From Idiomarina rhizosphaerae (lineage in GTDB: Bacteria > Pseudomonadota > Gammaproteobacteria > Enterobacterales > Alteromonadaceae), in contig NZ_JAMZDE010000008.1 in assembly GCF_024159085.1 (NCBI RefSeq), positions 310,001 through 374,000 of the forward strand: DNA of 64,000 nucleotides, written 5' to 3'. Under the pieces are notes generated by a model that was not told the DNA's origin, searched no databases, and saw only the letters and a program-made list of their open reading frames with translations. Positions 9,340-18,848 of this stretch are shown piece after piece. The number at the start of each line of letters is the position of its first letter. Position 1 is the stretch's first letter. Both the position numbers and the translations under genes were made by a program.

Positions 9340-9819
9340 ATGGAAAAGTACGAAGAACTGCTGCTGGCCTTAAGAAAAGTTATTCGCGCTATCGACTTAT
9401 ACTCTAAGCAGTTAAATAAGTATTCCGGATTAACCGCGCCTCAGTTATTAATTCTGCGTGAAATAAATGCGGCAAACGGCATAACCGCCAGTAAAGTGGC
9501 ACAAAATATCAATCTAAGCCCGGCGACCGTCTCTAATGTCATCGAACGCCTTGAACATCGGCAGTTAATCCACAGACACCGTAGTGAACAAGACAAACGC
9601 AGGGTTTCTCTTTACCTCACTGAGCAGGGCCTGACTCTACTGGAAAAAGCACCACAGCCATTGCAGGAAGATTTCATAGAAAAGTTTCAGGCACTGGATG
9701 AATGGGAGCAGTCGTTGCTGCTCTCGTCAATGCAAAGAATTGCCAATATGATGGATGCGGAACGTCTCGACGCCGCGCCCGTACTTGAAGTTGGAAGCTA
9801 CCACAAACTGGACCATTAA
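9340..9819 (+). CDS. MarR-family transcriptional regulator
   Basis: A 159-residue protein with the winged helix-turn-helix of MarR regulators: LTAPQLLILREIN, recognition-helix region NLSPATVSNVIERLEHRQLI (about 58-77), then the wing EQDKRRVSLYLTEQG. It probably binds DNA as a dimer. The ligand and targets are unknown. Its stop is one base before the ATG of the exeM-like nuclease, so it may regulate its own operon, including that nuclease. A GAGG ribosome site precedes the start. Confidence 0.9.
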   Translation: MEKYEELLLALRKVIRAIDLYSKQLNKYSGLTAPQLLILREINAANGITASKVAQNINLSPATVSNVIERLEHRQLIHRHRSEQDKRRVSLYLTEQGLTLLEKAPQPLQEDFIEKFQALDEWEQSLLLSSMQRIANMMDAERLDAAPVLEVGSYHKLDH

Positions 9820-9820
9820 C

Positions 9821-11590
9821 ATGCACAAACGACTACTTAGCTTATTACCAGCTCTGCTTTTATCTGGAGCTGCAATTGCAGAAACCTGTGGAAATGACAA
9901 AGAGATTATTTCTATTTCACAGGTGCAGGGAGAAAGTGAACAGTCTCCAAAGGTTGGTAAGCAAGTAACCGTGCGCGGTATTGTTACCGCAAGCTGGCAG
10001 GCGCCTGAGCAACTTGGCGGCTTTTTTATTCACAGTTTGCCTGAGGATATGGATGAAAATTCTGCCACCTCAGAAGGTTTATTTATAGTCACTAATAAAC
10101 TGCATTCACAAGTTAATAACGGTGAATGGGTAAGAGTGACAGGACAAGTTGAAGAGCGTTCAGAATTAACCTCGTTAATAGAGGTATCCAATATAACAAC
10201 CTGCGGTGAAGCAAAAACACTTCCTGTGAGAACTGAGCTGGAACTCCCGGTTGAATCACTTGACGAGCTTGAAGCCTTAGAAGGTATGCCTGTCATTTTA
10301 TCCGCTACTAAAGGCGAGAGCCTGACAGTTTCCGGCAATTACAATTACCCTCGCTACGGTTTTTTCGATATCTCTGCAGGGCGCTTATGGACGCCGACTC
10401 AAATCGTTATGCCGGGAAAAGATGCAAAACTTCAGGCACAGGAAAACGAATTGAACCGCTTGCAGGTTGACGACAACAGCAATATTGTCGAGCCCCGTCC
10501 GCTGCCATTTACCGAGCTACAGTATGGTGAACAAGGCAGCTTACGCTCGGGTTCAACCCTGAAAAGCTTCTCGGGGATTATCAGTCAGTTCAATAACCGT
10601 TACCGAATTCAGCCAACCGACAACTTAGAACTAGAAACACCATCTGTGCAACCGCAACTGGCAGAGAAGTCAGATAATGCCGTACGCATCGCCAGTTTTA
10701 ATGTGCTGAACTTCTTTAATGGAAACGGCACCGGACAAGGTTTCCCGACTCCCAGAGGAGCCGACACTCCGGAGCAAATGCAACGACAACAGAAAAAAAT
10801 TGTGGCAGCACTAGCGGCTATTGATGCTGATGTTATTGGCTTAATGGAAATTGAGAATGACGGATTTGGTGAACGCAGCGCAATAATGCAATTGGTTAAG
10901 GCGTTGGAAAAAGCATCAGGAAAAGATTACGCAATAGCTGAGCCGCGTGCCGAAAAAATAGGAACAGACCAAATTACTGTCGGTATTATTTATCAACCGC
11001 AGCGTGTAAAACCGAGTTCTCACGCGATATTTACACGTCAGGGACCTTTCTCCTGGGGAAGCCGCCCTCCTCTTGCGCAGAGCTTTATCGACGCCAACAC
11101 AGATAAAGAATTCAGTGTTGTGGTGAATCATTTCAAATCGAAAGGCAGTTGTCCGGAAGACTCTGAAAGCCCTAACAGTAACCAAAATGATGGGCAGGCC
11201 TGCTGGAACGACTTAAGACTTCAGTCCTCGCAAGAGTTAACTCAATGGATTCAGAGCGAGTCTTTAGCAAACCCGGTATTACTGGGTGATTTTAATGCTT
11301 ACTATCAGGAAGATCCGGTACGTTATTTTACTGACAATGGTTTTTATAACCCTTCAGACGCAAAGGACTATTCTTACGTTTACGACAGTCAGGCCGGAGC
11401 TTTAGATCACGTTTTTGTTGCAGATTCACTTAAAAACGCGATTCAGGAGGTGTATCATCTACCCTTTAATGCTGACGAACCTCAGGTATATGACTACCGC
11501 GATGAGGCGTATTTTGCAGAAGGCCCTTTCCGCTCTTCTGACCATGACCCACTAGTACTGGACTTAGTTTTTTCCGGCTCAGGCATGTAG
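9821..11590 (+). CDS. ExeM/NucH-family extracellular endonuclease
   Basis: A secreted nuclease of 589 residues. The N-terminus MHKRLLSLLPALLLSGAAIA is a signal peptide. An OB-fold-like region follows (TVRGIVTASWQ about residue 48; RVTGQVEE), then an endonuclease/exonuclease/phosphatase domain from about residue 285: IASFNVLNFF, IGLMEIEND, VVNHFKSKGSCP, LLGDFNAY, LDHVFVAD and SSDHDPL. These hold the metal-binding Asn, Glu, Asp and His residues of the fold. Relatives degrade extracellular DNA for nutrition or biofilm release. I chose the ATG at 9821 over 9755 because it creates the signal peptide and follows the marR stop by one base. Unlike many ExeM proteins there is no C-terminal anchor. Confidence 0.92.
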   Translation: MHKRLLSLLPALLLSGAAIAETCGNDKEIISISQVQGESEQSPKVGKQVTVRGIVTASWQAPEQLGGFFIHSLPEDMDENSATSEGLFIVTNKLHSQVNNGEWVRVTGQVEERSELTSLIEVSNITTCGEAKTLPVRTELELPVESLDELEALEGMPVILSATKGESLTVSGNYNYPRYGFFDISAGRLWTPTQIVMPGKDAKLQAQENELNRLQVDDNSNIVEPRPLPFTELQYGEQGSLRSGSTLKSFSGIISQFNNRYRIQPTDNLELETPSVQPQLAEKSDNAVRIASFNVLNFFNGNGTGQGFPTPRGADTPEQMQRQQKKIVAALAAIDADVIGLMEIENDGFGERSAIMQLVKALEKASGKDYAIAEPRAEKIGTDQITVGIIYQPQRVKPSSHAIFTRQGPFSWGSRPPLAQSFIDANTDKEFSVVVNHFKSKGSCPEDSESPNSNQNDGQACWNDLRLQSSQELTQWIQSESLANPVLLGDFNAYYQEDPVRYFTDNGFYNPSDAKDYSYVYDSQAGALDHVFVADSLKNAIQEVYHLPFNADEPQVYDYRDEAYFAEGPFRSSDHDPLVLDLVFSGSGM

Positions 11591-12543: not shown

Positions 12544-12588
12544 ATTAAACGGTCTATAACTAAACACCACCTTTGGTTGGAGAACACT

Positions 12589-13701
12589 ATGTCGTTTCGC
12601 CTTATAATTGTTATTGTTGGTTTGTTAGTATCTTGTTTCAGCATGGCACAGAATAGCGGGCCAACAAAGCAAAAAGATGAAAAAGTCGCGACTTTTGCCG
12701 GCGGCTGCTTTTGGTGTGTTGAGGAAGCCTTTGAACAGATGCCCGGCGTCCGGGAAGTCATTTCTGGTTATAGTGGAGGTGACGAAGCTAATCCAACATA
12801 TGAACAGGTTTCTGCAGGTAAAACCGGACATACTGAAGCAGCGCAAATATATTACAACCCAGATATCGTAAGCTATGCAGCGTTACTTCAGAAATTATGG
12901 CGTATCAGTGACCCGACAGACAACGACGGACAGTTTGTAGACCGTGGTAAACAGTATCGCCCCGCTGTTTTTTATCACAATGATGAACAAAAGCGCATAG
13001 CTATGGAGTCGCGCGAATGGCTGGATAAAAATGGACCCTTCCCTGACCCGGTGGTTATTGAAATAACACCCTTTAAGAGCTTCTACAAAGCTGAAGAATA
13101 CCACCAGGACTATTACGACAAGAACCCCGTTCGCTACCGTATTTATACCTACAACTCGGGGCGTTATGACTTCGTTGAGAAGCATTGGGGCGATACCTCG
13201 GACGTTGACTATCAGCAATTTACGAATGACAACCCCACAGGTAAAGCTGAGCAGCAAAGCTTCGTTAAACCTAGTGACAGCGAACTGAAAAAACGCCTAA
13301 CGGATATTCAGTATGCAGTGACTCAGGAAGACCAAACGGAACCCGCCTTCGATAACCGCTACTGGGACAATGATCGCAAGGGTATTTATGTAGATGTAGT
13401 AAGTGGTGAGCCACTTTTCTCTTCAGCAGATAAATACGAATCGGGTACCGGCTGGCCAAGTTTTACTAAACCCATAAGCCCAGACGCGGTAGTAGAAAAA
13501 GATGACAGCAGCTGGTTCTACACCCGTACTGAAATTCGCAGCCGCAAAGCAGACTCTCATGTAGGCCACGTTTTTAATGATGGTCCACCGCCTACTGGTT
13601 TAAGATACTGCATGAATTCAGCGGCACTGCGCTTTATTCCTTTAGAAAAAATGGAGGAAGAAGGGTACGGCGACTACATTCCTGCAGTCACCGATGATTA
13701 G
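12589..13701 (+). CDS. msrAB: Exported fused peptide-methionine sulfoxide reductase MsrA-MsrB
   Basis: Repairs methionine-S-sulfoxide (MsrA half) and methionine-R-sulfoxide (MsrB half) in proteins. The 370-residue protein has an N-terminal signal or anchor ([20 protein letters not shown]), so it acts in the envelope. MsrA follows with GGCFWCVEE (catalytic Cys40) and then [10 protein letters not shown]. MsrB starts near residue 230, with [19 protein letters not shown] and the catalytic Cys in [11 protein letters not shown]. The MsrB half lacks the zinc CxxC pairs. The frame is open from a TTG at 12577, but the ATG at 12589 with GGAG upstream is better. It resembles the PilB/MsrAB fusions minus the thioredoxin domain, so an outside reductant is needed. 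Confidence 0.93.
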
Positions 13702-13715
13702 TTAAGCGGTAATAA

Positions 13716-15731
13716 TCAGGCCGTCCAGCCCAGCTCAGTAGCGCGCTGCTGAGCTTGCTTGGGCACATCAGTTGCCACAAAGTGATGATGCAGCACCTGA
13801 ACACCCAGCATATGGTTGATGACGGCATCAAGCTGCACACGCTCTTCATTCGGAACATTCTCATCCTGATGTCGTTCAAAGGTCCGCACCACTTCGTCGT
13901 AATCCAGCAGACCGGCTGACTTCACTGCCTCAGCATTCAGAAACTGATCTGCCAGCTTCTCAACGGCTTTCCATTTCTCCGGGTCGGTGTGCGCCGGCGG
14001 TGCCATAAAAGCGAACTTTTCACGTTTATACAGCGTTTCCGGCAACAAGCCTTTCATGGCTTCACGCAACACATATTTTTCTTTATTGCCTTTAATGCGC
14101 AGGTGCGGCGGCACAGTGAAAGCATATTCCGCTAAGTGATGATCTAAAAATGCCGGGCGCGCCTCCATTGAATTAGCCATATCCACCCGGTCACCGCCCC
14201 AGGTCAGAATTTGCCCTTCCAGCATGGTTTTAATCCAGACATACTGAGCTCTGTCCAGCGGGTGCCGACCGTCCAGCATGTCTTTATCAAGTGTGTTGGC
14301 AATAGCCTGGCTGGGGTCATAGCCTTCAACCTGCTTCCGCTTTTTCTCTGACATAAGCGGCAAAGCAACCGATGAGCAGGAAAGCCACGGCTGCACACAA
14401 CTTGGAGTAAAGCCCATTTTCTGGTTAAAAGCTTCGCAGACAAACTCTTCGCGAGCCAACATCGCGCCTTTAAAGAGTTTATTGTTTTTCTCCAACAGCT
14501 CCTGCCACTCAACCCGCTCCACTTCCGGCAAATGGTCAAGTCCATGCAGGAACATGTCTTTTCTAAAAGCCGGGTAACCTGCAAAGAGCTCATCAGAACC
14601 CTCTCCGGTCATCACGACTTTATAACCGGCTTCGTGTACCTCTTTACTCATCAGATACTTGGCCACACCCAGCGTGTTGTATATGGTTCGCTCGGTGTGC
14701 CACAAGGTTTTCACAAAATGGTCATAGAGGTCATCGGCTTTAAGCCGCATAATATGGTGGTCAGCCTGAGTGGCTTCAGCCATTTCCTCTGCTATGGGGG
14801 TTTCATCGTAGTCAGCAGAATCAAAACCTATGGTAAAGGCTTTTACCGAGGTTTGAGTTGAGGCAGATGCAAGCCCAAGAATGGCGCATGAATCAATACC
14901 ACCGGACAAATAGCAACCGACAGGTACGTCAGCTGTCATTCGGTGCTGAACGGCTTCCAGTAACTTTGCACGAACGCCTTCAATGTAAGTCTCTTCGTCA
15001 ACATCGGCGCCCGGGTAGCTCTCTTCCGGTGGAAAGTCGACATCCCAGTACTTATGCTCTGTTGCAACCACTTTGCCATTTTTGCGCTGCAACTTAATCA
15101 CATAACCCGGCTGAACCTGATTAATCCCTTCAAAAGCCGTAGAGCCCGGAACCATCACTTGAATCAGCTGGTGGTATAAGCCCTCTGCCGAAAACTCCCG
15201 TTTAACCTCAGGGTGGGCAAACAGTACTTTCAGTTCAGACCCAAACACCACACCGTGCTCCGTTTCCGTCCAGTACAAAGGCTTAATTCCAAACCTGTCG
15301 CGCACCAGATACAGGCTTTCATCTTTTGCATCGAATAAGCCGAAAGCAAACTCTCCACGAAGCTCCTTTAGAGTGTCCTCCAGTCCGTAACGCTCAAACA
15401 GGTGAAGAACAATTTCAGAGTCACTTTTACTGTTAAACCGTGCGCCACGAGCGGTTAAGTCCGCACGTATGCGTTTAAAGTCGTAAAATTCACCGTTGTG
15501 AGTCAGCATCAGTCGTTTATCGGCTGATATAAAAGGTTGCCGACCTCGCTTTTCATCCAGGTCGATAATGGATAATCGGGCGTGACTAAATCCCACACCA
15601 TAGTCTTGTTGTACTTCATAACCAAACCCGTCAGGGCCACGATGATGCATTATCGCAGCCATATTCACTAAGGTTTGGGGTTCAATCGCTCTTTCCGTTT
15701 GATGATGAAAAACGCCAGCAATTCCGCACAT
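13716..15731 (-). CDS. asnB: Glutamine-hydrolysing asparagine synthase-like amidotransferase (long form)
   Basis: A 671-residue enzyme. Cys2 (MCGIAGVF) is the N-terminal nucleophile of the glutaminase domain, supported by MHHRGPDG and HNGEFYD. The synthase domain has the PPi loop SGGIDSCAIL (about residue 270) and TGEGSDELFAGY. The family forms an amide from a carboxylate, ATP and glutamine; the textbook substrate is aspartate. At 671 residues it is over 100 longer than E. coli AsnB (554) and closer to the long AsnB-like amidotransferases found in specialised pathways. It is the last gene of a five-gene operon with a symporter and an unusual carbamoyltransferase, so the substrate may not be aspartate. 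GAGGAAA lies before its ATG. Confidence 0.88.
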   Translation of the reverse strand: MCGIAGVFHHQTERAIEPQTLVNMAAIMHHRGPDGFGYEVQQDYGVGFSHARLSIIDLDEKRGRQPFISADKRLMLTHNGEFYDFKRIRADLTARGARFNSKSDSEIVLHLFERYGLEDTLKELRGEFAFGLFDAKDESLYLVRDRFGIKPLYWTETEHGVVFGSELKVLFAHPEVKREFSAEGLYHQLIQVMVPGSTAFEGINQVQPGYVIKLQRKNGKVVATEHKYWDVDFPPEESYPGADVDEETYIEGVRAKLLEAVQHRMTADVPVGCYLSGGIDSCAILGLASASTQTSVKAFTIGFDSADYDETPIAEEMAEATQADHHIMRLKADDLYDHFVKTLWHTERTIYNTLGVAKYLMSKEVHEAGYKVVMTGEGSDELFAGYPAFRKDMFLHGLDHLPEVERVEWQELLEKNNKLFKGAMLAREEFVCEAFNQKMGFTPSCVQPWLSCSSVALPLMSEKKRKQVEGYDPSQAIANTLDKDMLDGRHPLDRAQYVWIKTMLEGQILTWGGDRVDMANSMEARPAFLDHHLAEYAFTVPPHLRIKGNKEKYVLREAMKGLLPETLYKREKFAFMAPPAHTDPEKWKAVEKLADQFLNAEAVKSAGLLDYDEVVRTFERHQDENVPNEERVQLDAVINHMLGVQVLHHHFVATDVPKQAQQRATELGWTA

Positions 15732-15749
15732 TCTTTGCTTTTCCTCGTA

Positions 15750-16817
15750 TCAGACGACATCAATGACGCGTTCAGCTCGCTGTACCATACAGGTCAGTAG
15801 CGCCATACGTAAAAACACCGCCCCCCGTGCCTGGCTGAAATACCAGTTATGAGGCGTATGGTCGAGATCGGCGGATAATTCTTCACCGCGCGCTAATGGG
15901 TGTAAAATAATAGCGCTGTCTTTTAGCGGTGACTGCGCCGTTAAATGAAACTCACTGCCATAAGTACTAAAGGTATCACCTTCCCACGAAATAGCGTTGA
16001 TATAAACGACATCGAGCTCTGGTAGTACCTGCTCTAAATCCCGGGTCGTACGAATGTTTATTCCGGCTTGCTCAATCTGTTCTCGTTGCTCACTTCCAAA
16101 TAGCTGAGTCGACGATTCTTCATCATGAATAATGACAATTTCATCGATTGCTTTTGGAAACTTTACTAAACATTTAATAAAGCTACGCACTGTGCGCATT
16201 TTATTTGGCACACCAATAATGCCAATTTTTATTGGTGCTTTATCGGCTTCGTCCGTCACTAAATCGGGGCGCCATTTAAACATTGCATACATATCCGTAA
16301 GCGCCTGAGTTGGATGCTCATCTGAACCATTACCCGCATTAATAATGGGAATGCGCAATGAGTCGATCATCTCTTCCAGTGAGGTTTCATTATTGTCCCT
16401 CAACACCACACAATCACCATAGTTATTAAACATTTCAGCCACATCGGCTAAACGCTCACCTTTGGCTATGCCGGTAGTAGAACGATCCGTAATTGACATG
16501 ATATCGCCGCCCAGACGGTGCCAGGCGCTTTCAAATGACAAACGAGTACGAGTACTTGGCTCGTAAAACGCGCTGATTAAAATTTTGCCTTGTAACGATG
16601 TGCTAAAACGACGAGGGTTAGCCTCGTACTTGGCAGCAAGCCGGAACAGCTGCAACATACCCAATCGCGAAAATTGATCTGCAGACACAACATGCTGATT
16701 CGACAAGTTCAGCAAGTAATCACCATCTTCCTGAATTGCTTTCAATAACGCCTTTGGATGAGCATCGCCACAAACATCGGGGCGATCCCGTTCAAAGGAG
16801 ACATCCTTTATAGTCAT
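15750..16817 (-). CDS. Aspartate/ornithine carbamoyltransferase-family enzyme with altered amino-acid site
   Basis: A 355-residue homologue of PyrB. The carbamoyl-phosphate site is intact: FYEPSTRTRLSFE (S-T-R-T), AKGERLADV (the Lys of the 80s loop), VVLRDNN (Arg105 of E. coli), EHPTQALTD (His134/Gln137) and KMRTVRS (Arg167). But where E. coli has YMTRVQKER (Arg229/Gln231, which hold aspartate), this protein has YINAISWEG, and HPLPR is HPLAR. TPHNWYFSQA at the C-terminus confirms the family. It could be a divergent aspartate transcarbamoylase, or an enzyme carbamoylating a different amine. It starts four bases after the stop of a 40-residue membrane protein and 18 bp before asnB. No pyrI-like regulatory gene is adjacent. 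Confidence 0.82.
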   Translation of the reverse strand: MTIKDVSFERDRPDVCGDAHPKALLKAIQEDGDYLLNLSNQHVVSADQFSRLGMLQLFRLAAKYEANPRRFSTSLQGKILISAFYEPSTRTRLSFESAWHRLGGDIMSITDRSTTGIAKGERLADVAEMFNNYGDCVVLRDNNETSLEEMIDSLRIPIINAGNGSDEHPTQALTDMYAMFKWRPDLVTDEADKAPIKIGIIGVPNKMRTVRSFIKCLVKFPKAIDEIVIIHDEESSTQLFGSEQREQIEQAGINIRTTRDLEQVLPELDVVYINAISWEGDTFSTYGSEFHLTAQSPLKDSAIILHPLARGEELSADLDHTPHNWYFSQARGAVFLRMALLTCMVQRAERVIDVV

Positions 16818-16821
16818 ACAA

Positions 16822-16944
16822 TTACCATATGGTTTTAGAAATAAAATCTTTAATAAAAAGCCCCAGTAACAAAACCGGAGCTAAGCAAGTCATTATTAGC
16901 GCCAAAGAAATTAACCACTCAAAAGCCAGTTCACTAATTAGCAT
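16822..16944 (-). CDS. Small membrane protein (40 residues), putative symporter accessory protein
   Basis: The reverse strand encodes 40 residues beginning MLISELAFEWLISLALIMTC, with one long hydrophobic helix and a short basic tail (FIKDFISKTIW). Its ATG lies inside the end of the symporter gene, overlapping it by 11 bp, and its stop is four bases before the carbamoyltransferase ATG, so it is flanked by translational coupling on both sides. Short single-helix proteins are known beside sodium/solute symporters (the 'symporter small accessory protein' type, and YhdT beside PanF). Membership is inferred from size, position and hydrophobicity. Confidence 0.7.
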   Translation of the reverse strand: MLISELAFEWLISLALIMTCLAPVLLLGLFIKDFISKTIW

Positions 16945-18367
16945 TTGACTGCTCCTTCTCATTTAGCCCGTCCCAGTCAAACTCTTCGCGACTGCGTAAA
17001 ATGCCTATTAGACATATTAGACCGGAAACCGCACATGACACTAAAGCGGCGACATAGAAGCCGACAACAAAGTAACTCAGCATACCAAATGCCGTACCGA
17101 ACGCCATAGCGCAAGCCGCGTATGTTCCCGTCAACCGACGGTGATACAGCCCCAGTACTATTGGCCAGATGGTGCTGGCAACAAAAGCCCCGGCAAAATT
17201 TAATAAAGCACCTAAGGTCGCAACGCGCGGCAAGCACAATAACCAGGTAACAATTCCTAAGCCTAGAATACAACTGCGATTAAAGCGCATTAATGTTTTG
17301 TCGCTGGCTTTAGGTTTCAGTTTTTTATGGAAAATATCCTGTGTAACTAAGTCAGAGGTTGCAGCAAGTAATGAGTCCAGACTGGATGCCAACGCAGAGA
17401 AAATTACGATGAAAACGATAATCGCGCCAACTTTACCTAATACAGCGGCTGCAACAGTCGGACCAATCATATCGGGGCTTGGCGGGAAAATGCCCAGCTG
17501 CGGCGCTGCTAATGCAATGAACCCGGTAACAATAGGAATGGGCAGCCATAATAAGCCACCGGTTAAATAAGCCTTGTAGGCCACATTCTTTTTAAAAGAT
17601 AAAGCCCGTGACCACCAGACATTGGAGTGAAAGATTTCCCCAAGTCCGAAGAAGATATTGTTAAACAAAAACATAACAGCGGCCGGAAACAACATATCCA
17701 ACAGTTGCGGATGTTCGCTTGTCAGGTTGCTGTGAATGCTCTGCAGGCCAACATTGTCAATTATCCAGTAAGCGATAAAACTGATACCAACAATGATAAT
17801 TAAAGCCTGAATAAAGTCGGTGGCAATAACTGCCCGCATTCCGCCAAAGAGTGTATAGCCGACACAAATTATCAGTATGGTAGTCATGCCAATGTGATAA
17901 TCGAGCCCACTGAGTGACTCAAGCAAAATGCCCCCGGCCATTCCCAGACTAATTAACCAGCCAAAAGCGTAAACCACAGAAATGATGATAAAAACAAGCC
18001 AGGCCAGGTTGCCATAACGTAAACGAACAAAGTCGCCAGATGTATAACCATTTGGCAGCAGCTCCTTAATGCGTTTAGCCATAGGCGCAAACAGCACTAA
18101 GCCCAGGGCGGCAAAGGAATACCCTACCATTCCCCAAATACCGAACTGATAGGTTAACTGGGGTGCAACCAGCGTAGTATTACTGGTCACCCAGGTTGCC
18201 ATAGCCGTTGCCGCGGCAAACGCAAAACCGACATTCCGCCCTGCCAGAGCAAAATCCTCGTGGCTGCGGTTCTTCCGCCCCAGCCAATAACCAAAGGCTA
18301 CCCAGAACACCCCAAACAGGACGATAATAGTGATGCCGGTACTCGTATCCAGTGCGAACTCAGTCAT
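16934..18367 (-). CDS. Sodium/solute symporter (SSS family)
   Basis: A 477-residue integral membrane protein with about 13 hydrophobic segments and typical SSS features: an N-terminal helix followed by YWLGRKNRSHEDFALAGRNVGF, the GYTSGDFVRLRYGN loop, TLFGGMRAVIATDFIQ, and SALASSLDSLLAATSDLVTQDI (the Na2-site helix). It should couple Na+ entry to uptake of an organic solute; the substrate cannot be read from sequence. It overlaps the upstream Fn3-like gene by 8 bp and the downstream micro-protein by 11 bp, so all three are probably made together. Being tied to a carbamoyltransferase and an amidotransferase suggests an amino acid or ureido compound as cargo. Confidence 0.9.
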   Translation of the reverse strand: MTEFALDTSTGITIIVLFGVFWVAFGYWLGRKNRSHEDFALAGRNVGFAFAAATAMATWVTSNTTLVAPQLTYQFGIWGMVGYSFAALGLVLFAPMAKRIKELLPNGYTSGDFVRLRYGNLAWLVFIIISVVYAFGWLISLGMAGGILLESLSGLDYHIGMTTILIICVGYTLFGGMRAVIATDFIQALIIIVGISFIAYWIIDNVGLQSIHSNLTSEHPQLLDMLFPAAVMFLFNNIFFGLGEIFHSNVWWSRALSFKKNVAYKAYLTGGLLWLPIPIVTGFIALAAPQLGIFPPSPDMIGPTVAAAVLGKVGAIIVFIVIFSALASSLDSLLAATSDLVTQDIFHKKLKPKASDKTLMRFNRSCILGLGIVTWLLCLPRVATLGALLNFAGAFVASTIWPIVLGLYHRRLTGTYAACAMAFGTAFGMLSYFVVGFYVAALVSCAVSGLICLIGILRSREEFDWDGLNEKEQSNAN

Positions 18368-18848
18368 GGCGCTCTTGTCTGGAGTGAATCCATTGCCGAT
18401 GAAGCAGCAATAATGTTGCTACCAGAGTAATGAAAATAACCAGGCCGACGAAGAATAAGGTCAGAGATTGCCAGAGCGGATAGTGCTCCACAGTTATCTC
18501 AATAGTATTGCTGGTATAGATTTGGTTATCAGGGCCTTCGGCTCGAGCGCGCACATAGTAAGTGCCGTTGCTAAAACCGGTAAGTGAAATATCCTGGAAG
18601 TCACCTAGCGTAGGAAACTGACGAGTACTCTTGGCAAACTCTGAATTGCTGGCAACTTCAATAGTAACTCTGTTAAGCTCGTCAAAATTCGGGGCGCTAA
18701 CAGAAACGGTGAAGTAACCTTCTTTTACAACGGAGTTCGGCCCGCTCAGTTTTAACGAGCTCGCATGCGCAGTTGTTGGCAACATTACCAACAAACATAA
18801 AGCAAACAAAATATAGCAATAGTTAAAACCATTTTTCTGCGTCGTCAT
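18360..18848 (-). CDS. Periplasmic Fn3-like protein with C-terminal membrane anchor
   Basis: A 162-residue protein with a signal peptide (to about residue 30, TTAHAS), a single beta-sandwich region resembling a fibronectin type III or Ig-like domain (NSVVKEGYFTVSVSAPN, TYYVRARAEGPDN), and a C-terminal membrane helix (SLTLFFVGLVIFITLVATLL) with a short basic cytoplasmic tail. The topology is a periplasmic domain tethered to the inner membrane. Its stop overlaps the symporter ATG by 8 bp. It may be a solute-capture or stabilising subunit of the symporter; that role is inference from position. It heads the operon. Confidence 0.75.
   Translation of the reverse strand: MTTQKNGFNYCYILFALCLLVMLPTTAHASSLKLSGPNSVVKEGYFTVSVSAPNFDELNRVTIEVASNSEFAKSTRQFPTLGDFQDISLTGFSNGTYYVRARAEGPDNQIYTSNTIEITVEHYPLWQSLTLFFVGLVIFITLVATLLLLHRQWIHSRQERHD

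Follow-up and report, generated by a model that had tools for sequence, protein, structure and literature searches.

A five-gene operon in Idiomarina rhizosphaerae

The DNA analysed here, referred to as the window, comprises 64,000 nucleotides of Idiomarina rhizosphaerae (contig NZ_JAMZDE010000008.1, positions 310,001 to 374,000) and carries on its minus strand a compact operon of five genes. In order of transcription these encode a Fn3-like protein of 162 aa (18360..18848), a sodium/solute symporter of the SSS family (477 aa, 16934..18367), a micro-protein of 40 aa with a single membrane span (16822..16944), a carbamoyltransferase of 355 aa (15750..16817) and an AsnB-like glutamine-dependent amidotransferase of 671 aa (13716..15731). 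An earlier note on this DNA, made from the letters alone, had described five genes on one strand that overlap or lie 4-18 bp apart, and all five open reading frames are confirmed. The Fn3-like and SSS genes overlap by 8 bp and the SSS and micro-protein genes by 11 bp, and gaps of 4 bp and 18 bp separate the carbamoyltransferase gene from the micro-protein gene before it and the AsnB-like gene after it. The micro-protein is read from an ATG behind AAGGAG; an ATG further upstream, at 16962, would yield 46 aa. Scans for promoters and terminators gave values within about 1.5 standard deviations of those of shuffled sequences.

The interpretation that we consider probable, with considerable room for doubt, is that the operon makes and carries N-carbamoyl-glutamine amide (CGA) as a compatible solute, the lineage of the window having added a symporter module to the enzymes. 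The arrangement is not a product of chance, because the order SSS, micro-protein, carbamoyltransferase and AsnB, which the earlier note had proposed to seek in other genomes, is found again in further genera and in a second class. Outside Idiomarina, the carbamoyltransferase and AsnB proteins are 45-83% identical to those of the window.

The carbamoyltransferase and the AsnB-like amidotransferase

The carbamoyltransferase matches the Pfam families OTCace_N and OTCace, and its predicted structure (mean pLDDT 85.9) has the aspartate transcarbamoylase (ATCase) fold, with its best PDB matches to E. coli ATCase. The fold and the carbamoyl-phosphate site are shared with PyrB, but the operon enzyme lacks the RxQxER motif, has HPLA for HPLP and falls outside the PyrB clade. 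In NCBIfam it stays below the cut-off of every listed carbamoyltransferase family, including PyrB (TIGR00670, 195.7 bits against 236.95) and ornithine transcarbamylase (OTC; TIGR00658, 95.1 bits against 280.85). The OTC loop DxxxSMG is also absent, the corresponding loop of the window protein being NAISWEG. Residues were tabulated in E. coli numbering for 78 distinct family sequences, drawn from 116 family loci and aligned over at least 300 residues, and for 60 control PyrBs. The table has 79 family rows, the window protein appearing twice. Residues S52, T53, R54 and T55 (STRT), R105, H134 and Q137 are kept in all 78 family sequences, which thus retain the SxRT and HPxQ motifs and the conserved arginine, and R167 and K84 are likewise kept in 78/78. 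Three positions that are intact in all 60 controls are changed throughout the family: R229 is replaced by A or S, Q231 by A, S, V or T, and P268 by A in each of the 78, with loss of the RxQxER motif of the 240s loop and of the HxLP motif.

The altered positions bear on the second substrate. In ATCase the β-carboxyl of aspartate is anchored by R229 and Q231, and R167 and K84 help with the α-carboxyl; RxQxER is said to occur in all known ATCases, and some variation in HxLP exists among transcarbamylases (PMC4581275, cited here, like the other papers below, from excerpts). As the anchors of the α-carboxylate are kept and those of the side-chain carboxylate are lost, the substrate would be an α-amino acid without a charged side chain. 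Judged from its sequence, the operon enzyme is not a normal aspartate transcarbamoylase, and the family would define a subfamily of transcarbamylases whose second-substrate site is altered. A tree of 20 family, three distant, 22 PyrB and one OTC rows, which carries long-branch warnings, separates the 22 PyrB rows (support 93/67) from the 20 family rows, which group with the three distant relatives (99/95). The distant proteins L171-L173 nest within the larger grouping, and a family that takes in L042, L080 and L081 is thus not monophyletic in the strict sense. These carbamoyltransferase-like proteins (L171 7224-8240, L172 2495-3472, L173 3866-4873) form a clade of their own and are 37-39% identical to the window enzyme; L172 and L173, which are the proteins L035 and L036, have changed carbamoyl-phosphate motifs, for example NPSQ instead of HPTQ.

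The same chemistry could act on another neutral amino acid, with the N-carbamoyl amide of alanine, asparagine, glycine or the like as product. The residue changes indicate only that a carboxylate on the side chain has lost its anchors, and the loss of R229 and Q231 is compatible with any neutral side chain. Such a product is nevertheless unlikely, as CGA is the only accumulated solute of this class known to us and comes from Ectothiorhodospira, the presumed genus in which 10/10 genomes have the cluster (see below).

The second enzyme, referred to as P0001, matches the Pfam families GATase and Asn_synthase. Residues C1, R49, N74 and D98, which we take to be those of the glutaminase site, and the motif SGGxDS, presumably the ATP loop, are conserved in 47 or 48 of the 48 AsnB-like family members aligned, and all are present in P0001. 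An α-amino carbamoyl group and a carboxylate amide, as found in CGA, are the expected output of a carbamoyltransferase acting together with an AsnB-type amidotransferase. In the pathway of N-acetylglutaminylglutamine amide (NAGGN), an AsnB-type enzyme also caps the carboxylate, and the other cap consists of acetylation and a dipeptide bond, not of a carbamoyl group. NAGGN resembles CGA in being an uncharged glutamine-based osmolyte (solute class in PMC1224877), but P0001 lies far under the cut-off for the NAGGN amidotransferase (TIGR03104, 306.2 bits against 570.1), and that identity was rejected on the score.

Both enzymes might instead serve ordinary pyrimidine and asparagine synthesis, as a second PyrB and the asparagine synthetase of the genome. 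P0001 passes the cut-off of the generic asparagine synthase family (TIGR01536), and its genome has no other strong Asn_synthase match, the score being 311 bits against 21.7 and 19.6 for the other two; asparagine may therefore be an additional product of P0001, or its sole one, and the ATCase fold of its partner fits as well. This explanation is very improbable, given that hydrolases, channels and transporters adjoin the operon enzymes in relatives, that the carbamoyltransferase has lost R229, Q231 and P268 and scores below the NCBIfam cut-offs, and that a canonical pyrB lies elsewhere. The genome of the window encodes two further carbamoyltransferases, a canonical PyrB with R229, Q231 and P268 and an OTC-type protein. 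The earlier note had called the operon enzyme an altered PyrB homologue, which these residues and scores bear out, and had asked whether a canonical pyrB is also present, which it is. It had also stated that the operon would simply be pyrimidine and asparagine synthesis if there were no other pyrB and the enzyme made carbamoyl-aspartate at normal rates, and the first half of that proposition fails because of the separate canonical gene. A plain PyrB assignment was rejected on the residue changes and this separate gene.

Distribution of the family and the presumed Ectothiorhodospira clusters

The carbamoyltransferase is present in 19/19 genomes searched of the genus of the window, and one of the operon kind occurs in 9/197 genomes of the order and 23/369 of the class, the own genome included. 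For the class, 30 genomes passed at E 1e-42 and seven of these were dropped, their best matches being 35-40% identical. Outside the class, a search of 398 genomes adds a single one (G666, 46% identical); 21 passed, and apart from G666 and the own genome these were dropped at 33-37% identity. Among the matches listed, the nearest proteins are those of Idiomarina aquatica (85%) and I. baltica (83%), and the carriers include Idiomarina, Pseudidiomarina, Aliikangiella, Pseudoalteromonas, Thioalkalivibrio, Candidatus Thiodiazotropha, Novosphingobium profundi and Actinosynnema, together with records titled Prochlorococcus and Synechococcus, both possibly mis-binned. The record titled Prochlorococcus (L082 747-8515) has genes for the carbamoyltransferase, for AsnB and for an M20 hydrolase; that of a DUF1028 protein comes next, and an amino-acid racemase is encoded beyond it.

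CGA has been reported from E. marismortui (PMC1224877, PMC3857566), is known chemically since 1991 and is listed for one organism only (PMC3857566). It has been named as a candidate solute, and only that, for phototrophs poor in annotated osmotic genes, with no CGA genes given in the excerpt (PMC7824335). Excerpts of the literature on CGA or on this enzyme set tie no gene or enzyme to the solute, and we infer the link made here.

The genus was approached through the presumed Thioalkalivibrio family, which was picked by a carbamoyltransferase 96% identical to that of Thioalkalivibrio thiocyanoxidans. The gene is present in 41/47 genomes of this family and in all 38 of high quality. Reaction-centre genes occur in 11 of the 47, ten of them the whole of one genus (g186, 10/10) and one in another genus, and all 11 have the carbamoyltransferase. 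The HiPIP of one g186 genome is identical over 71 residues to PDB 1hpi, which we take to be the HiPIP of E. vacuolata; a PDB search with the reaction-centre M chain indicated no genus. On the strength of the reaction-centre genes and the HiPIP identity, g186 is presumed to be Ectothiorhodospira. All ten of its genomes carry M20, isochorismatase, carbamoyltransferase and AsnB genes in that order (L150, L151, L295, L297-L303), with a MarR gene ahead in 9/10 and an MscS gene after in 5/10, and the presumed producer genus of CGA therefore has the genes for both predicted reactions. None of the ten loci has SSS, micro-protein or Fn3-like genes within the 14-17 kb covered per locus. The carbamoyltransferase of L295 lies in two frames or pieces, the result of sequencing error or decay.

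Gene neighbourhoods and a proposed solute cycle

The wider company of the operon was surveyed by tblastn at 53 family loci (16, L067-L082, and 37 others) and 64 ordinary PyrB loci. The scan behind the 16 family and 64 control loci covers at least 80 loci, and no 200-base stretch is common to the sets of 16 and 37. As close relatives are among the 53, these do not count as independent events, and contig ends cut L078 and L168 on the AsnB side and L082 and L074 on the symporter side. The family loci have AsnB in 50, M20 in 46, SSS and isochorismatase in 36 each, Fn3-like in 32, MarR in 28, MscS in eight and BCCT in two; the PyrB loci have MscS in one and all other cluster genes in none. In its long form the cluster comprises MarR, Fn3-like, M20, isochorismatase, SSS, micro-protein, carbamoyltransferase and AsnB genes. 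The earlier note had proposed a coordinated system with carbamoylation and amidation as its likely chemistry, and this part stands, with an altered carbamoyltransferase and an AsnB gene in nearly all loci. At L153 the AsnB and M20 genes are each in two pieces, reflecting sequencing error or decay.

The two hydrolases of the long cluster belong to families that would act in the opposite direction to the two enzymes. Two M20 proteins compared with NCBIfam score above the cut-off for the hydantoinase/carbamoylase family; their second and third match is to the N-carbamyl-L-glutamate amidohydrolase ErtE, under its cut-off. Two isochorismatase-type proteins have biuret amidohydrolase as their nearest family, far under the cut-off. 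The invariant residues include H92, D103, E137, E138 and H201 in 46 M20 proteins, the copy in the own genome included, and D47, K152 and C185 in 36 cluster isochorismatases, and in both families we take these to be catalytic. A carbamoyl-adding and an amide-adding enzyme together with two hydrolases of the removing type are what a solute that is both built and dismantled would need, and the cluster looks, from its predicted proteins, capable of both forming and degrading an N-carbamoyl amino-acid amide.

The symporter matches Pfam SSF (112.5 bits, cut-off 22.8) and stays under the NCBIfam superfamily cut-off of TIGR00813 (139.6 against 184); it is the proposed carrier of the solute. The micro-protein has no match in Pfam or NCBIfam and lies between the SSS and carbamoyltransferase genes in 36/36 loci having the SSS gene. 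A pattern scan finds it in 37/53 family loci, the 36 SSS loci and L296, and in 0/84 control loci. Its C-terminus has a conserved Asp-x6-Trp, the Asp (Glu in L078) standing seven residues ahead of the terminal Trp. It is probably a subunit of the symporter, and the cluster defines a micro-protein of 40 residues that accompanies an SSS symporter. The Fn3-like protein has a single sub-threshold match in Pfam (16.0 bits, cut-off 32.3). Its AlphaFold model (mean pLDDT 90, pTM 0.69) shows a beta-sandwich between a signal-like helix and a C-terminal membrane helix, and gives weak PDB matches to Ig/Fn3-type and other beta-sandwich proteins; H122, G135 and F139 are among the residues invariant in an alignment of 19 rows. 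Its gene is found in 32/53 family loci, every one with a symporter (32/36 symporter loci). The symporter, micro-protein and Fn3-like genes behave as a removable module.

That behaviour bears on the function that the earlier note had favoured, uptake plus modification. In such a system the symporter would import an amino compound, which would then be carbamoylated and amidated for nutrition or detoxification, and the tight coupling of the SSS, micro-protein and Fn3-like genes to the enzymes in the window, with SSS present in 36/53 loci, is what it would lead one to expect. However, no symporter lies nearby in the 10/10 presumed Ectothiorhodospira genomes or at L081, L154, L157, L304 and L306, and both modifications consume ATP, whereas the two hydrolases work in the reverse direction. 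Import for modification is improbable, and it was rejected as the core function because the presumed Ectothiorhodospira clusters manage without the symporter.

Genes with osmotic roles are neighbours of some loci. Besides the MscS and BCCT genes counted above, three long neighbouring proteins picked by eye are, by NCBIfam, sucrose synthases beside L300 and L151 and a glycogen phosphorylase at L157. The window has a MarR regulator of putative EctR/CosR type on the plus strand (9340..9819), and MarR is also downstream in three Idiomarina/Pseudidiomarina loci. EctR1 and CosR, which are mutually 51% identical, repress compatible-solute genes at low salinity (PMC7876524). A related MarR gene occurs in 7/20 ectoine loci, taken from 30 matching genomes, and the window protein is 49-51% identical to six of these seven and 36% to the seventh. 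The cluster resembles ectoine operons under EctR/CosR in that some loci have a MarR gene of possible EctR type next to the presumed solute genes, but its chemistry is different and no ectoine synthase was found in the genome of the window by a search that matched 30/229 class genomes, 28 of them over the cut-off. The window MarR may be linked to the operon.

Carbamoyltransferases and AsnB homologues also serve in specialised metabolism, and the product of the pair could be a small molecule of specialised metabolism or a signal rather than an osmolyte, turned over by the hydrolases. The Actinosynnema pretiosum locus fits this idea in having the pair without the other cluster genes. A specialised product is extremely improbable, however, as presence in 19/19 genomes of the genus of the window and 38/38 good genomes of the presumed Thioalkalivibrio family would be unusual for one, and as genes for MscS, BCCT, sucrose synthase and presumed EctR-type regulators are found close to some loci. 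At that locus (L081 7794-10866) the carbamoyltransferase and AsnB show 43-45% identity, and no other cluster query matched within 17 kb.

For synthesis of CGA as a compatible solute, the proposed mechanism has two steps. The carbamoyltransferase would carbamoylate the α-amino group of L-glutamine with carbamoyl phosphate as donor, and the AsnB-like enzyme would then amidate the α-carboxylate using ATP and glutamine, so that both charges are masked and an endogenous, uncharged osmolyte results. Uptake or recapture of the solute would fall to the SSS symporter together with the 40-residue protein and the membrane-tethered Fn3-like protein. In most relatives, the isochorismatase-type amidase and the M20 N-carbamoylase would dismantle CGA to glutamine, CO2 and ammonia, and this assignment of each hydrolase to the group it removes is tentative. 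The substrate, product, order of steps and osmotic regulation of the operon are those that we infer from the predicted proteins and their gene context.

Several observations weigh against this mechanism, apart from the possible role of P0001 in asparagine synthesis and the compatibility of the altered substrate site with any neutral side chain. The clusters of Idiomarina and Pseudidiomarina (window, L067-L069) contain neither hydrolase, the isochorismatase not having been sought genome-wide in the genome of the window, and the M20 relative in that genome sits on another contig, unlinked to the operon. In NCBIfam the two M20 proteins match best, and above the cut-off, an 'allantoate amidohydrolase' subfamily. 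In E. marismortui CGA is described as a minor solute, unseen by Raman (PMC3857566), and betaine is given as the major solute of the family of Ectothiorhodospira (PMC8877833). E. marismortui itself was not identified among the genomes of the family, the match being at the level of the presumed genus, and as 38/38 good family genomes carry the gene, its presence is consistent with the CGA link and does not single out the known producer. The eleventh phototroph, G938, has the carbamoyltransferase and the micro-protein with no AsnB within 14 kb. The MarR type of the Ectothiorhodospira clusters is only 26-37% identical to the EctR types, and the MarR gene of the window lies 3.9 kb past asnB with three genes between.

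In its widest form, the proposal stands at about even chances: marine and haloalkaliphilic Proteobacteria would broadly share a hitherto undescribed pathway to CGA, consisting of a new glutamine N-carbamoyltransferase without the HxLP proline and an AsnB homologue forming the α-carboxamide, with CGA being broken down in most lineages by two dedicated hydrolases and moved in many by a sodium symporter whose 40-residue subunit is obligate, these modules being gained and lost. If true, genes are offered for a solute listed from one organism only, and many marine and soda-lake bacteria would make it, among them all searched genomes of the genus of the window. The candidacy of CGA as a phototroph solute, raised in the excerpted PMC7824335, would also become testable through this cluster.

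Two further genes lie close to the operon in the window. A fusion of the methionine sulfoxide reductases MsrA and MsrB (12577-13701) adjoins it on the opposite strand, and an extracellular nuclease of the ExeM/NucH family (9755-11590) directly follows the MarR gene.

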